The notes beneath the pieces were generated by a model. That model ran no database searches. It had not been told where the DNA came from and saw nothing but the letters and a program-made list of their open reading frames with translations. This document shows, piece by piece, positions 6,308 to 30,939 of a DNA stretch of 45,553 bases. The position numbers and the translations under genes are program-made. How positions within the stretch are numbered: position 1 is the first letter of the stretch; each line of letters opens with the position of its first letter. The stretch comes from an uncultured Mycoplasmatota bacterium (lineage in GTDB: Bacteria > Bacillota_I > Bacilli_A > RF39 > UBA660), in NCBI GenBank assembly GCA_947574255.1, contig CANPJT010000005.1, positions 1 to 45,553 on the forward strand, given 5' to 3'.

Positions 6308-7411
6308 TTAATTATCCACTTTATTAAACATTTCTAAAGCTGACTTAATTACATCATCCATATCATAATACTTATATTCAGCTAATCTTCCACCAAAAAT
6401 AACATTTTTCTCATTATTAGCTAGTTCTCTATAACAATCAGCTAATTTATTATTCTTTTCATCATTAATAGTATAATATTTTTCCATTCCTTCTTCATAA
6501 TCTGCTGGATACTCATAAGTAATAACAGTCTTCTTTTGATTACCATATTCAAAATGCTTATGTTCAATAACTCTTGTATATTCTACTTCATGTCCAGTAT
6601 AATTAACTACTGCATTTCCTTGATAATTATTATTATCTAATACTTTTGTTTCAAACTTTAAACTACGCCATTCTAAAGTTCCTAAAGAATAATTAAAGTA
6701 TTCATCAATAGGACCAGTATAAATTATCTTTTCTGCAATAGATTTATAATAATTGACATCATCAAAATAATTTGTATTAAGTTTCACATCAATTCCTTCA
6801 AGCATTTTTTCAACAAATTTAGTATAACCTCCTATTGGAATACCTTGATATTTATCGTTAAAATAATTATTATCATATATTAATCTTACAGGTAATCTTT
6901 TTATAATAAAAGCTGGTAAATCTTTACAATCTCTATTCCATTGCTTTTCCGTATAACCTTTAATTAACTTTTCATAAATAGTTCTTCCTACCAAAGAAAT
7001 CGCTTGTTCTTCTAAATTTTTAGGTTCTCCTTTAATTTCTTTCTTCTCTTCATTAATATGTCTTAATGCATCTTCTGGAGTAAACACATCATTCCAAATC
7101 TTAGCAAAAGTATTCATATTAAATGGCATATTATAAATTTCATTTCCGATTCTAGCTACTGGTGAATTAGTATACCTATTAAACTCTATAAAAGAATTTA
7201 CATAATCCCATACATCTTTATAATCCGTATGAAAAATATGAGCTCCATATTTATGAACATTTATTCCTTCTATTTCTTCTGTATAAACATTTCCTGCAAT
7301 ATGATTTCTTTTATCAATTACTAATACTTTTTTACCTTTTTCATAAGCTTTTTGAGCAAATGTTGCTCCAAATAAACCAGAACCTACAACTACATAATCA
7401 TATTTTTTCAT
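6308..7411 (-). CDS. glf: UDP-galactopyranose mutase
   Basis: Flavoenzyme that interconverts UDP-galactopyranose and UDP-galactofuranose, supplying galactofuranose for surface glycans. The FAD-binding Rossmann motif (VVGSGLFGATFA) is at the N-terminus and KYGAHIFHTD follows near residue 60; the C-terminus retains IFGGRLAEYKYYDMD, typical of the family. The 367-aa length from the ATG at 7411 is normal. This start has GGTGGTGG just upstream, whereas the ATG at 7426, five codons earlier, overlaps the preceding stop and lacks a site. Its presence implies a Galf-containing polymer; which glycosyltransferase uses the donor is not evident. Confidence 0.96.
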   Translation of the reverse strand: MKKYDYVVVGSGLFGATFAQKAYEKGKKVLVIDKRNHIAGNVYTEEIEGINVHKYGAHIFHTDYKDVWDYVNSFIEFNRYTNSPVARIGNEIYNMPFNMNTFAKIWNDVFTPEDALRHINEEKKEIKGEPKNLEEQAISLVGRTIYEKLIKGYTEKQWNRDCKDLPAFIIKRLPVRLIYDNNYFNDKYQGIPIGGYTKFVEKMLEGIDVKLNTNYFDDVNYYKSIAEKIIYTGPIDEYFNYSLGTLEWRSLKFETKVLDNNNYQGNAVVNYTGHEVEYTRVIEHKHFEYGNQKKTVITYEYPADYEEGMEKYYTINDEKNNKLADCYRELANNEKNVIFGGRLAEYKYYDMDDVIKSALEMFNKVDN

Positions 7412-23468: not shown

Positions 23469-25754
23469 CTAATTACTTTTTTTAAATACATCAAGCAAAA
23501 TATTACTTGTTTTATTCACACTAAATTTTTCACTAGTTTTATGAGCATTCTTAATTAAATTTTCTTTTTCTTTCTTTTTCATTTCTAAAACTTCTTCTAT
23601 TTTAGTTGCTAATTCTTTATAATCCTCAGAATTAAATGTTATACTATTTTTACTATCTACTAAATAAGAACCTGGTCCATACTTATTACTTCCAATAACC
23701 AAAGCACCACAAGCCATAGCTTCTAACCCTGTTAACCCCAAACTTTCACTCTTACGTCTTGTTGGATAAATAAAAGCCTCTATCACATTAAATATATTTA
23801 TCAACTCACTTTGACTAACTAAAGGTTTTCTCACAATATATGTTGATAACTTATACTTATCAATCATTTCCTTTAAAATATTTTCTTCTTGTCCGCTTCC
23901 GACAATTATAAACTTTATATTCTTTAATTTATCTCTTTTCTTTAATTCATTTATTGCTAATAAAAGAGTATCATATCCTTTATCTTTTTCAATACGAGCT
24001 GCATATCCAAAATATTTTATATCTTTATCTATTTCTAATTTTTCCAAAGCTTCTTCTTTTTTTATTACTTTAAATTTATTTAAATCAACCCCACCTGCTG
24101 GATAAACAACTATTTTTTCTTCCGAAACTTGATATTTATTTTTAAGTACATCTCTAAAATAATTAGATGAAGCGATGACTATATCAGCTTTCTTTAAATA
24201 CTTAGCACTAACAATTTCATTCCTAATTTCAAAATCATAATCAGCAACTATATCATTACCATGCGTATTTAAAACTAATTTTGTATTTTTGGAACAAATA
24301 AATGGTATAAAAACTCCTCTTGTTGAATGTGAAATAAAATGAACATATATATAATCATAATTATTCCATACAGACTTCCAAAAAGATACTAAATAAAATT
24401 TGAAATAATATATAACTTTTTTTAACTTATTATTTGTCTTGTGAATAACTACTAAATCCATATTAAAGCCATTTTTATTTAATAAATCATAAGTATTCTT
24501 AACAAAAATACCATAATGTGGATATTTATCATTTGGATACATATTACTAACTAATAAAATATTTACTTTTTCCAAACCTTTATCATTGTTGGAAACCAAA
24601 AACAACAATGCAATATAAGTACTAACCATTGGGCTTAGCAAAACATGTCCTGAAAAACAAGATATTAAAAATATTAAGATAATGCTAAACTTATAAACAT
24701 TTTTTAACTTAGCTTGTTTAAATATATAGAAAAAGAAAACAATATAAAAAGCACTCCCAATAATCCCTAAACTATAAAAAATATCAAAACAATCTATCTC
24801 AACATCTTTTGTTGCCAAAATTTTTTCTCTTCCAATACCTAAAAGTTTTTCTATAGAATCACTCTTTAAATACTGTTTATTAATATCACAAAGAAAAGTA
24901 AGACGATTACTAAAAATAATATGATCAATATTTTCTAATTTTAATAATTCTCTAACATCATCTATTTCATAATAATTTAAAGAAGTTTTAATATTTTCAT
25001 ATAAATCCATTTTCGGAACATATACAATAAGACCAGCTAGAATAGCTATAACTCCTAATAATATTTTTAATTGATTCTTTTTTATTACTTTAAAAATGTC
25101 TTTGTAATAGAAAATAATAAAATAAATAAATATAATTCCTAAACTTAAATAAAATGCTTTAGTTCCCAACAAACAAATAGTTACAAATAATAAAACTAAA
25201 AACATCCCTTTTAATAAATAGCTATTGCTTTCTATTAAATAAACAATAACCGCTGGCAATAAAACAACAAAAATATTAACTAGTTCATTACCAATATAAA
25301 AATAAGACAAATATAAATTTTTATTAGGATACACTTCATTAATGTTATGACCCATTCCTAAAAACATTGGAACAAGATACAAAATTAAATAAAAAAATAA
25401 TATATAACTGATAGTTTTCTTATTTAATTTTTTATTCTCATAATTAGAAAAAAACAAAATTAAAATTGGCAAATAAAATATTTTAATAATATTGGTTATT
25501 TCTATCTTTAAACTCATTTCATTTAGGATTAAATACAGAAAATAAATCACAAAATAAATTCCCATAAATAAAAATATTTTTTTATTTGGATAGTTTTTCA
25601 AAAGATAAATTACTGTAAATATCAAAAAAAGACCTTTAGTTATAAAACCTATACTATAATCAAGATTTTGCCATGTAAGAATTCCCGTCAAAAAATCAAT
25701 TAAAGGAAAAAATATAATAAAATATTCTAAATAATTATCAATTTTTTTTAACAT
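23469..25754 (-). CDS. Fusion: polymerase/O-antigen-ligase-like membrane domain plus GT4 glycosyltransferase
   Basis: A 761-aa two-part protein. Residues 1 to about 385 form a multispanning domain of the O-antigen ligase/Wzy type, with a GTKAFYL segment, a long outside loop (about 250-320) and FDIFYSLGIIGSAFY. Residues from about 392 form a complete GT4 enzyme: VNILLVSNMYP, YFGYAARIEKDKGYDT and ESLGLTGLEAMACG (about 668). The outer-face part would polymerise or ligate lipid-linked units while the inner-face part adds a sugar. The reading frame is continuous with no sign of error at the junction. AAAGGTGAT lies before the ATG. Ligase versus polymerase cannot be told apart here. Confidence 0.85.
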   Translation of the reverse strand: MLKKIDNYLEYFIIFFPLIDFLTGILTWQNLDYSIGFITKGLFLIFTVIYLLKNYPNKKIFLFMGIYFVIYFLYLILNEMSLKIEITNIIKIFYLPILILFFSNYENKKLNKKTISYILFFYLILYLVPMFLGMGHNINEVYPNKNLYLSYFYIGNELVNIFVVLLPAVIVYLIESNSYLLKGMFLVLLFVTICLLGTKAFYLSLGIIFIYFIIFYYKDIFKVIKKNQLKILLGVIAILAGLIVYVPKMDLYENIKTSLNYYEIDDVRELLKLENIDHIIFSNRLTFLCDINKQYLKSDSIEKLLGIGREKILATKDVEIDCFDIFYSLGIIGSAFYIVFFFYIFKQAKLKNVYKFSIILIFLISCFSGHVLLSPMVSTYIALLFLVSNNDKGLEKVNILLVSNMYPNDKYPHYGIFVKNTYDLLNKNGFNMDLVVIHKTNNKLKKVIYYFKFYLVSFWKSVWNNYDYIYVHFISHSTRGVFIPFICSKNTKLVLNTHGNDIVADYDFEIRNEIVSAKYLKKADIVIASSNYFRDVLKNKYQVSEEKIVVYPAGGVDLNKFKVIKKEEALEKLEIDKDIKYFGYAARIEKDKGYDTLLLAINELKKRDKLKNIKFIIVGSGQEENILKEMIDKYKLSTYIVRKPLVSQSELINIFNVIEAFIYPTRRKSESLGLTGLEAMACGALVIGSNKYGPGSYLVDSKNSITFNSEDYKELATKIEEVLEMKKKEKENLIKNAHKTSEKFSVNKTSNILLDVFKKSN

Positions 25755-27987: not shown

Positions 27988-28500
27988 TTAAATTATCCTC
28001 CCTAAAATTCCATAAGAAAAAACTAGCATTATAACTCCTGCTAATACTACACCTAAAAATGCAGCTAAGCAAGACTTTCTCTTATCCATATTAAGTAGTG
28101 CGGCAATTAAACAACCAGTCCAAGCCCCTGTACCAGGAAGAGGAATACCAACAAACAAAAACAACCCTAAATACTTCAAATTCTCAATTTGATCTTTTTT
28201 AGAATTAGCTTTATTCTCACACCAAATAACCACTTTTCCCATATGTTTCCAATCACGCATTTTTCGAAATATTGGATTAATAAGCCATAATATAAAAGGT
28301 ATTGGTATTATATTTCCTAGAAAGCAAACTAAAAAACTTTGCCACATCGGTAAATCAAATAAACTTGCCGCAATAAGTCCTCCTCTTAATTCTAGTATTG
28401 GAATCATTGATAAAATAAAAATAACTATATATTTTCCTAATAAACTACTTGCAATTCCTCCAAATAAACCTATCATAAAATTTGCTAACTTTTGAGTCAT
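27988..28500 (-). CDS. Small multidrug export family membrane protein (COG2426)
   Basis: A 170-aa integral membrane protein with four or five helices. ILELRGGLIAAS and FVGIPLPGTGAWTG are the two signature blocks of the Sm_multidrug_ex family; the transport role is weakly established and substrates are unknown. AGGAG lies nine bases before the ATG. It heads a two-gene unit with the phosphatase-fold gene. Confidence 0.88.
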   Translation of the reverse strand: MTQKLANFMIGLFGGIASSLLGKYIVIFILSMIPILELRGGLIAASLFDLPMWQSFLVCFLGNIIPIPFILWLINPIFRKMRDWKHMGKVVIWCENKANSKKDQIENLKYLGLFLFVGIPLPGTGAWTGCLIAALLNMDKRKSCLAAFLGVVLAGVIMLVFSYGILGRII

Positions 28501-28593: not shown

Positions 28594-28634
28594 AAAAAAA
28601 TAAAAGAAGAAGAAAAGGTTAATTCTTTTCTTCT
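28594..28634 (-). terminator. Strong intrinsic terminator upstream of the 28500 unit
   Basis: On the minus strand AGAAGAAAAG and CTTTTCTTCT (28634-28625 and 28617-28608) form a perfect 10-bp stem with a 7-base loop, followed by TCTTTTATTTTTTT. It is 160 bases past the kinase gene and would close either the kinase operon or the candidate small RNA. Confidence 0.8.
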
Positions 28635-28745
28635 AAAAGTGTGAGTTTGAGTTTATATGTTATTTATATTGTATAGAGTTATCGTTTATTTATTTTTTAA
28701 CTTTTAATATCTTTTTTTAATCTATATAATCACTTTCCTTTCATA
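28594..28745 (-). ncRNA. Candidate small RNA behind the two-component operon
   Basis: About 150 bases between a promoter-like element with phased boxes (28751-28793) and a strong terminator, on the same strand as the kinase gene. Only trivial frames exist (for example a 4-codon ATG frame near 28744), so a protein is unlikely. A C-containing, apparently unpaired stretch near 28635-28655 could be a pairing region. Without the boxes this would simply be the 3' UTR of the kinase mRNA, which remains the alternative. Confidence 0.35.
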
Positions 28746-28750
28746 TTTAC

Positions 28751-28793
28751 ATGATAACAAACAAATATGAACTTTTTGTGAAGTTAAAGTGAA
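28751..28793 (-). promoter_or_regulatory. Phased PhoP-box-like repeats with a -10 element
   Basis: On the minus strand TTCACT (28793), TTCACA (28782), TTCATA (28771) and TTGTTA (28760) start exactly 11 bases apart, with 5-base spacers. TATCAT (28756-28751) follows as a possible -10. The middle two match the Bacillus PhoP consensus TT[ATC]A[CT]A. The first box lies only five bases past the kinase stop codon. Confidence 0.5.
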
Positions 28794-28797
28794 ATAT

Positions 28798-30234
28798 TTA
28801 GCATTTGTCAATTTCAAAGAAAAATGTAGTTCCTCTAACCTTTTTACAAACTACACCATATTTAAATCGATGCTGTTCTAAAATATTACGAACAATCGAA
28901 AGACCTATTCCCGTTCCAACAACATTTCTTTGGTGCTTCTTATCATTTTTATAATATTTATCCCAAATATAAGGTAAATCATCATGTTTAATTCCTTTTC
29001 CAGTATCTATTATTTCTACCAAATATTTCTTTCCTTTGTCCGTAACTCGAATAATAACCTTTTTATCTTTACCAGTATAATTAACCGCATTATTTATTAA
29101 ATTATAAATTACTTGATTAATCTTACTCTTTTCTGCTTTAACCATTGCTTTTTCAGGAATTTCTAAAACAAAATTATAATTTTCTTTTTCCTTAACAATA
29201 TCATATTTAGTAAGAATATTTTTTATTTCTTTTACCAAATCATATTCTTCTAATACTATTTTTTCACCATTTAATGATTGTAATTTAGAAAGTTCTAATA
29301 AATCATTTACTAAAACTGTTAATCGGTCCGTTTCAGCAATTATTACATTTAAATTTTTATTACGTTTTTCTTGATCCTCATAAGTAATATCTCTTACCAT
29401 TTCAGCATAAGCTTTAATCATTGTAAGAGGAGTCTTTAAATCATGTGAAACATTTGCAAGCAAATCACGTCTTAATTCATCAATTTTCTTCATATCTTTA
29501 CAAGCAGCGTTTAAGGTCCTAGAAAGCTCATCAATTTCTAAAGTTCCATTTTCTTGAAAAACAATATCATAATTTCCTTTTCCCATCTCTTTTGCTTTCT
29601 TAGTAATTCCCATAATTGGTCTTGTAATTTTTTTAGATAAAAAATATGCTACCAAACATGCAAAAAACAAAACTAAAAACATAATATAAATAAGTTGACT
29701 TCTTAAAACAACACTAGTTGAATCAATATCTTCTAGAGTACTATAAACAAAAATATAACCATAATCATTCTTTATTTCATATAAATAAGCTTTAGTTCGA
29801 CTAATAGGATTAACTAACTTAACTCCTTTCTTCTCATAATTCTCTTTTAAATCTTCCTTAATTGCATTAATACTATTAATATTTTTATTTAATCCACAAC
29901 CAATTTGCATTGTATTATAAAACAAATTATTTCCATAATTTGTCTCAAATTCTATACAAACACTATTTTGATAAGCCATTGTTGATAACATATTATCTAA
30001 ATCATCCCAGGAAGTTTTTTCTAGTTTAGCCACTATATTATTCATTTTTTTTATTTGATAATGTTCATAACTTATTTGTAAAAATATCACTTGAAACAAC
30101 CATAAAAATACAACTATTCCTAAACTAAATAAAATTAAATATAATAAAGTTTTAACATTAAAACTATTATGTTTTTCTCTTAATTTAGAAACAATTTTTA
30201 TACTTTTATTCTTTATATTCAAACTTATAACCAA
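28798..30234 (-). CDS. Membrane sensor histidine kinase
   Basis: A 478-aa sensor with a helix near 30-52, an extracytoplasmic sensing region of about 130 residues, a second helix near 183-203, HAMP (about 205-255), HisKA with phospho-acceptor His264 in NVSHDLKTPL, and an HATPase domain with NLINNAVNYT, DTGKGI and GTGIGLSIV. It pairs with the response regulator directly upstream, whose 3' end it overlaps. The start is uncertain: TTG at 30234, giving a 29-base overlap, or TTG at 30222; neither has a strong ribosome binding site, so translation may depend on coupling. The signal is unknown; box similarity hints at a PhoR-like system. Confidence 0.93.
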   Translation of the reverse strand: MVISLNIKNKSIKIVSKLREKHNSFNVKTLLYLILFSLGIVVFLWLFQVIFLQISYEHYQIKKMNNIVAKLEKTSWDDLDNMLSTMAYQNSVCIEFETNYGNNLFYNTMQIGCGLNKNINSINAIKEDLKENYEKKGVKLVNPISRTKAYLYEIKNDYGYIFVYSTLEDIDSTSVVLRSQLIYIMFLVLFFACLVAYFLSKKITRPIMGITKKAKEMGKGNYDIVFQENGTLEIDELSRTLNAACKDMKKIDELRRDLLANVSHDLKTPLTMIKAYAEMVRDITYEDQEKRNKNLNVIIAETDRLTVLVNDLLELSKLQSLNGEKIVLEEYDLVKEIKNILTKYDIVKEKENYNFVLEIPEKAMVKAEKSKINQVIYNLINNAVNYTGKDKKVIIRVTDKGKKYLVEIIDTGKGIKHDDLPYIWDKYYKNDKKHQRNVVGTGIGLSIVRNILEQHRFKYGVVCKKVRGTTFFFEIDKC

Positions 30235-30877
30235 CTTTTCTAATTGTAATTATAAAATTACGATACTTTCCTAAATTATTTCGAAGTGTTTTTATATGAG
30301 TATCAACAGTCCTATCATCTCCATAAAAATCATATCCCCAAATATTAGTTAACAAATTTTCACGAGTTAAAGCAATATTTTTATTTTCTATTAAGTACAT
30401 TAACAAATCATATTCTTTTGGAGTTAAATATATATTATTTCCATCAATATATACTTCATGTGCTGAAGCATCAATTTCTAAACCTTTAAATTTATAACTA
30501 ACTTGATTATTATCAACTACATTATTGCGTTTAGTTACTGCTTTTATTCTGGCAATTAATTCTCGAGGACTAAATGGTTTTGTAACATAATCATCTACTC
30601 CTATATCAAAACAAGTAAGTTTATCATACTCTTCACTTCTTGCTGATAACATAATAAATGGTACATTACTAAACTCTCTTATTTCTTTTACAGCCTTATA
30701 ACCATCCATTTTAGGCATCATAATATCCATAATAATTACATCAAAATCTTCTTGTTTAGCCTTTTCTATTGCTTCATATCCATTACTCGCCTCTTCGAAT
30801 AACATATTCTCTAAATTTAAGTACTCTTTAATAACATCTCTTATAAGTTCTTCATCATCAACAATTAATACTTTCAT
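30206..30877 (-). CDS. OmpR/PhoB-family response regulator
   Basis: A 223-aa regulator with a receiver domain (DD at 7-8, phospho-acceptor Asp51 in IIMDIMMPKMDG, Lys in YVTKPFSP) and a C-terminal winged-helix DNA-binding domain (LTPKEYDLLMYL, DDRTVDTHIKTLR). The AAAGGGAG site and ATG are clear. Its own promoter contains 11-bp-phased boxes like those after the kinase gene, so it probably controls itself and the region at 28594-28793. Confidence 0.96.
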   Translation of the reverse strand: MKVLIVDDEELIRDVIKEYLNLENMLFEEASNGYEAIEKAKQEDFDVIIMDIMMPKMDGYKAVKEIREFSNVPFIMLSARSEEYDKLTCFDIGVDDYVTKPFSPRELIARIKAVTKRNNVVDNNQVSYKFKGLEIDASAHEVYIDGNNIYLTPKEYDLLMYLIENKNIALTRENLLTNIWGYDFYGDDRTVDTHIKTLRNNLGKYRNFIITIRKVGYKFEYKE

Positions 30878-30898: not shown

Positions 30899-30939
30899 AT
30901 TATAACTTAATTGTGAAAAACAAATGAAAAAATCTATAA
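30899..30939 (-). promoter_or_regulatory. Response-regulator promoter with phased boxes
   Basis: On the minus strand TTATAG (30939), TTCATT (30928) and TTCACA (30917) start 11 bases apart, and TATAAT (30904-30899) follows. The boxes replace a -35, as expected of activator-dependent PhoB/PhoP-type promoters. Autoregulation is inferred. Confidence 0.55.

Follow-up and report, generated by a model that had tools for sequence, protein, structure and literature searches.

A putative small RNA gene behind three phased regulator boxes at a two-component operon of uncultured gut Bacilli

The regulator-kinase operon and its neighbors

The window, meaning the whole 45,553-nucleotide stretch of DNA analyzed here, carries a two-component operon followed on the same strand by a membrane protein gene. 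These genes and the operon promoter are:

30899..30929 (minus strand): regulator-operon promoter, TTTCAT-N6-TTCACA (30929-30912), then TATAAT (30904-30899); the same box pair is found in relatives
30206..30877 (minus strand): OmpR/PhoB-family response regulator, 223 aa (Pfam Response_reg and Trans_reg_C)
28798..30234 (minus strand): sensor histidine kinase, 478 aa, with two transmembrane segments, an extracytoplasmic Cache/PAS-like domain, HAMP, HisKA and HATPase_c (Pfam and a model of the sensor domain)
27988..28500 (minus strand): Sm_multidrug_ex membrane protein gene, next downstream (Pfam PF06695)

The kinase stop codon occupies 28798-28800. The sensor domain (29635-30147) was modelled as Cache/PAS-like with a pLDDT of 84 and has two invariant cysteines; structure comparison of this domain returned weak Cache/chemoreceptor-like matches, none of them confident, and no ligand was inferred. 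Elsewhere in the window, positions 23469-25754 of the minus strand encode a single 761-aa open reading frame that joins an O-antigen-ligase-like membrane domain to a group 1 glycosyltransferase.

Phased boxes and an extended -10

Just behind the kinase gene the minus strand reads TTCACT-ttaac-TTCACA-aaaag-TTCATA-tttgt-TTGTTA-TCAT. The sequence-only reading had taken this as four hexamers, each 11 bases from the next, and the spacing is as it described: the hexamers start at 28793, 28782, 28771 and 28760, and all of the steps are 11. Three of the four stand as boxes. At the fourth position, 16 aligned relatives keep only the TA of the -10 (TGTTATNAT / TGGTATNAT), and TTGTTA (28760-28755) is overlapped by the extended -10. 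On this sequence evidence TTGTTA is part of an extended -10 of the form TG-n-TATNAT and not a fourth box. The TATCAT noted earlier after the repeats lies at 28756-28751 and is conserved in the relatives as that extended -10. The promoter features are therefore listed as follows:

28766..28793 (minus strand): three 11-bp-phased regulator boxes, TTCACT (28793-28788), TTCACA (28782-28777) and TTCATA (28771-28766), from sequence, chance expectation (0.01) and conservation
28751..28758 (minus strand): extended -10, TG-T-TATCAT, 9 bases past box 3, from the promoter alignment and the conserved gap

Could the phasing be a coincidence in the AT-rich terminator region or 3' untranslated region of the regulator-kinase operon? 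The composition is extreme (75% A+T), and a version of the box triplet with two mismatches is not rare, with five matches in the window against 3.8 expected, which is not significant. However, the exact pattern TTCAY-N6-TTCAY-N6-TTCAY occurs once in the window, whereas dinucleotide shuffles lead one to expect 0.01 (one of 100 shuffles had a match). Since the two-mismatch pattern is common, the strength of the triplet rests on the exact match and, above all, on conservation.

A scan of genome contigs with an alignment of the kinase gave 80 loci, 13 of which (L075-L087) repeat genomes already in the set of close orthologs described below; nearly all are titled as metagenome-assembled genomes (MAGs) of uncultured Bacilli, Tenericutes, Erysipelotrichaceae or Candidatus Ventrenecus. 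A position weight matrix for the boxes was trained on L003-L018 and applied to 66 other loci, with mononucleotide shuffles as the control. The matrix scored 17.9 bits on these loci and -11.4 +/- 0.5 in the shuffles, and it had a single optimum, at box spacings of 11 and 11 bp with 9 nt to the -10. Three boxes with the 9-base gap lie 3' of the orthologous kinase above the 99% shuffle level in 54 of the 66 loci, although these loci share descent and their number is not a number of independent events. Recurrence of the repeats in related genomes had been set as one test of the sequence-only reading, and this is the result of it. The conserved phase, sequence and -10 distance, together with units that are inverted or duplicated in some genomes (see below), contradict the view that the phasing is accidental, and we regard it as almost certainly wrong.

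The columns that never vary in the promoter alignment are TTTCA, TTCAC, the CA of box 3 and the TA...T of the -10. Direct repeats in 11-bp phase that stand upstream of a -10, in place of a -35, are what one finds in an operator of the OmpR/PhoB type.

A proposed small RNA gene

Behind the kinases of L004-L018 the boxes are part of a larger unit. It consists of TTTCAY-N6-TTCAC-N..-CAtatt, an extended -10 of the form TG(T/G)TATNAT, the element GAAAGGAnnGTGAT, a block of about 50 nt (AAACGATAACTCTATACAATTTAAATAACATATAAACTCAAACTCACACTTT) and a hairpin with a T-run. The exceptions are L009, L013 and L016, where the unit is shortened, and L018, where the contig stops in the terminator region. In the window the predicted parts of the unit past the -10 are:

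28595..28744 (minus strand): proposed gene for a small RNA of about 150 nt, with the 5' end predicted from the -10 and the 3' end from the terminator
28729..28742 (minus strand): extended Shine-Dalgarno (SD)-like element GAAAGGAAAGTGAT with no usable open reading frame, able to pair with most of the 16S rRNA 3' tail
28635..28687 (minus strand): highly conserved block AAACGATAACTCTATACAATATAAATAACATATAAACTCAAACTCACACTTTT, from alignment
28654-28639 (minus strand): core AAACTCAAACTCACAC
28594..28634 (minus strand): intrinsic terminator, AGAAGAAAAG, a 7-nt loop and CTTTTCTTCT (28634-28608), then a T-rich tail, from sequence and fold

Among distant loci the most conserved element is the core AAACUCACAC, and the form ACTCACAC is common to nearly all of them. 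The core is unpaired or partly paired in most single-sequence folds. Past it, 66 of 71 loci have a hairpin with a T-run, compared with 7% of shuffled sequences, and the stem sequences differ. RNAalifold found no consensus structure in the alignment of the block, because terminator stems of differing sequence were aligned out of register. No Rfam family matched in the window except for a distant tRNA, and none matched at E<=1 in L099 or L105. Having its own promoter, an intrinsic terminator and no conserved open reading frame, the unit resembles, at the sequence level, the gene of a trans-acting sRNA.

The 5' end of the predicted RNA also has a recurrent form. A(A/G)GG stands ahead of the core in 73 of 75 units, 64 of them with the extended SD form, and the element GAAAGGAnnGTGAT is similar to what a complete complement of the 16S 3' tail would be (AGAAAGGAGGTGATCC); the tail GGATCACCTCCTTTCT is present in two genomes of the genus. 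One might suppose that such an SD, followed by ATG, GTG or TTG, opens a very short regulated reading frame, so that the unit encodes a micropeptide. An NTG codon does lie right past the SD in 68 of the 75 units (GTG in 39, ATG in 23 and TTG in 6), but only about 0-4 nt separate SD and start, which is too little for initiation to be efficient, the median frame is four codons long, the frame sequences are not conserved, only one frame reaches the core and stop codons abound in the conserved block. A micropeptide therefore seems very unlikely.

Some units depart from this anatomy. In L138, L144 and L152 variant units without clear boxes follow the kinase stop, and the 5' end of their RNA (GAAAAAAGGAAT) complements the hairpin region near the 3' end, which places the core in a large loop. 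The RNA is preceded by a second promoter-like unit in L093-L097, L103, L106 and L107. One sub-clade (L113, L115, L118, L121 and L137) has an altered core, AAACACACCTAAA, with the boxes unchanged, and it offers a natural test of co-variation with a target.

Linkage to the kinase and independence as a gene

In 74 of the 80 loci, no more than 420 nt separate the kinase stop from the RNA core. In the genus, close orthologs of the kinase and regulator occur in 13 of the 21 other genomes, and they also occur in two further genera; in all 13 genomes of the genus that have the ortholog, and in these two genera, the kinase is followed by the promoter, the SD-like 5' end of the RNA, the core and the terminator. 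Counting the present genome, kinase and RNA occur together in 14 of 22 genomes, and the other eight have no kinase ortholog and only weak partial matches to the RNA. Among 145 genomes of the family there are 11 matches to the RNA model, and in 10 of these a kinase ortholog ends about 90-200 nt before the match. No recognizable RNA accompanies the orthologous kinases of six further genera (L019-L024), and viral contigs contained no exact match to the conserved block.

The unit is not always in the same place or number. In L091 (about 6398-6489, minus strand) it faces the other way and converges with the kinase, and two RNA copies are present in L105 (2286-2376 and 2495-2586) and in L099 (3771-3850 and 3974-4014). 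The inverted and doubled units imply that the RNA is its own transcription unit. A tandem duplicate of the RNA also occurs at G115:C25:384-625, and L017 has a duplicated core-like stretch.

These patterns also bear on whether the region is a cis-acting, riboswitch-like leader or attenuator of the Sm_multidrug_ex gene, with the boxes as the promoter of that gene. Here, as in about 16 of 72 relatives, Sm_multidrug_ex is indeed the next gene within 500 nt. Elsewhere, however, the unit is kept while the next gene varies, nearly all of the loci have a terminator at its end, the L091 unit points at the kinase and no Rfam riboswitch matches. We consider a leader highly unlikely; with an end less than 500 nt from that of the kinase in only 16 of 72 loci, the Sm_multidrug_ex gene is a neighbor that stands outside the RNA unit.

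Which regulator binds the boxes?

In 58 of 62 loci the promoter of the regulator itself has a box pair whose spacing is exactly 11 bp, where 0.2 would be expected. Similar pairs also precede the regulator in genera without the RNA (L019-L025), and the recognition helix of the regulator reads RT[VIL]DTH[VI]K[TN]LR throughout. The 58 regulator promoters with the pair point both to autoregulation and to direct activation of the RNA promoter by the neighboring OmpR-family regulator, and on sequence grounds we take these two roles as well supported. The earlier proposal that the boxes form an OmpR/PhoB-type operator for the two-component system next to them thus gains from the conserved boxes, phase and -10 distance, from the pair at the regulator promoter and from the invariant helix.

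OmpR-family paralogs share 11-bp direct repeats and these genomes contain further kinases, so one could imagine a real operator that is bound by another member of the family, such as the true PhoP/PhoB of the cell. This is quite improbable, since the adjacent regulator carries the same box pair in its own promoter in 58 of 62 loci and the unit stays linked to the regulator-kinase pair, both being present or both absent in the genus.

A genome-wide search for the repeats had been suggested along with the first reading. In its own genome, which is 74% complete, TTTCAY-N6-TTCAC has seven matches against four for the reversed control. The matches include the promoters of the sRNA and of the regulator, but the other five are not promoter-like and were rejected as promoters; they resemble reverse-complemented start regions or coding sequence. 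The simplest reading is that the two-component system regulates itself and that its regulator has a single additional putative site, the promoter of the RNA.

Searches for a target

Sites complementary to the core are not enriched near start codons, with 143 found and 137 for the reversed pattern. The exact anti-core 10-mer GTGTGAGTTT has 21 matches besides the RNA in 16 genomes, against 15 for the reversed sequence, with no gene in common, and the regulator-kinase mRNA has no anti-core. Several of the exact GTGTGAGTTT matches are one recurrent hairpin, ACTCACAC..GTGTGAGTTT, which stands before short genes (for example, at G000:C7:6222-6255 and G000:C30:7494-7528, that is, L072 and L074) and in similar form elsewhere; it is possibly a mobile or repeated leader element. 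Another sequence, GTGTGAGCATG, recurs in most genomes and is presumably the complement of RNase P RNA, which makes it irrelevant to targets.

One candidate target was the mRNA of a membrane protein of about 400 aa with the SD AAAGGAGTGTGAGTTTATG (L185-L188, four orthologs). It failed the control with RNA-less genomes and was rejected, because this SD is also present in front of the ortholog of G014, a genome without the RNA, and is missing from most of the orthologs in RNA-bearing genomes. The family of this rejected target, membrane-anchored proteins of about 400 aa, is represented by L205-L225, and the two N-terminal parts that were scanned stay below all Pfam cut-offs.

A different role would account for an ultraconserved core without a conserved mRNA target. 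The RNA could be a signal-controlled ligand of the ribosome and not a classical antisense sRNA: its near-complete complement to the 16S tail would capture 30S subunits, and within this complex the single-stranded core AAACUCACAC would either bring ribosomes to one class of mRNAs, keep them from it, or bind a protein partner. We consider this unlikely. The preferred reading is that the RNA is probably a trans-acting sRNA and the main output of the two-component system, where the trans-acting antisense role is suggested by the anatomy of the RNA.

Comparison with known systems

The closest parallels are the FasX and csRNA systems of streptococci, the PHO boxes and STAB-SD. In Streptococcus pyogenes, the regulator of the FasBCA-FasX locus has been proposed to activate the sRNA of the same locus, argued to be its only site (PMC12675982). 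The present locus is like Fas in having an sRNA gene inside a sensor/regulator locus. It differs in that FasA is ComE-like and works with two sensor proteins, whereas here there are an OmpR/PhoB-type regulator, one kinase and three 11-bp boxes; moreover, the RNA matches no Rfam family.

The csRNA promoters of the streptococcal CiaRH system have TTTAAG-N5-TTTAAG in 11-bp phase, about 10 bp before the -10, and unpaired segments of the csRNAs are thought to pair with translation starts (PMC3091779, PMC8186281). Shared with the csRNAs are an 11-bp-phased repeat near the -10, a short RNA, an intrinsic terminator and the possibility of several copies. Here, in contrast, three boxes replace two, a single gene is fixed behind the kinase, the core AAACUCACAC takes the place of an anti-SD stretch, the 5' end is SD-like and no broad regulon is seen. 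Membership in the csRNAs was rejected on the boxes, which are TTCAC/TTCATA and not TTTAAG-N5-TTTAAG.

The PHO boxes of PhoB and PhoP are 11-nt direct repeat units upstream of promoters, with the unit GTTCACC in Streptomyces (PMC4415409). The sequence-only reading had called the hexamers PhoP-box-like, and this holds for the architecture of 11-nt units and for the resemblance of GTTCACC to TTCAC, but it does not extend to identity. The regulator and kinase score below the NCBIfam cut-offs of the PhoB/PhoR models (201.6 bits against 296.2 for PhoB, 198.4 against 400 for PnpS and 188.7 against 334.2 for phoR_proteo), no box-carrying phosphate genes were found and the output is an RNA, so a PhoP/PhoR phosphate system was rejected. 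Because boxes, regulator class or RNA differ in each case, the small RNA locus belongs by sequence to none of the FasX, csRNA or PHO groups.

The STAB-SD of the cry3A mRNA binds 16S rRNA, starts no translation and guards against RNase J1 (PMC4113751). As in STAB-SD, a 16S-complementary SD-like sequence is present near the predicted 5' end and, judged from the sequence, opens no usable reading frame. It heads a noncoding RNA here, whereas STAB-SD stabilizes a protein-coding mRNA, and the stabilizing role here is putative.

A proposed circuit and conclusions

Taken together, we consider it likely that the repeats serve as the operator through which an activator controls a small RNA gene directly 3' of the regulator-kinase operon. 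In the proposed mechanism the kinase would sense an extracytoplasmic cue and phosphorylate the OmpR/PhoB-family regulator, as their families suggest. The phosphorylated regulator would bind the three 11-bp-phased TTCAC/TTCATA boxes head to tail, an arrangement that conservation supports, and box 3, ending 9 bp before the extended -10, would replace a poor -35 so that RNA polymerase is recruited. The regulator would presumably also bind the conserved 11-bp pair at its own promoter and thereby regulate itself. The RNA promoter would give a predicted noncoding transcript of about 150 nt that ends at the intrinsic terminator. Its extended SD at the 5' end probably docks a 30S subunit and may shield the RNA from 5' decay in the manner of STAB-SD, and the exposed core AAACUCACAC would base-pair with target mRNA near ribosome-binding sites. 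The self-contained regulatory circuit suggested at the outset is thus probably right, with three boxes in place of four and the RNA gene as the output.

The RNA would represent a new, previously undescribed sRNA family outside Rfam. Since the operator, the autoregulatory promoter and the RNA occupy about 2.4 kb and no other promoter-like sites of this type turned up in their genome, the circuit is compact enough for testing in a surrogate host. A noncoding RNA with an SD-like 5' end also offers a case in which ribosome-based stabilization of RNA can be tested. In conclusion, a two-component system with an apparent built-in RNA output exists in a large uncultured lineage of gut Bacilli, the RF39-like Tenericutes, and it is conserved in some 75 species-level genomes.
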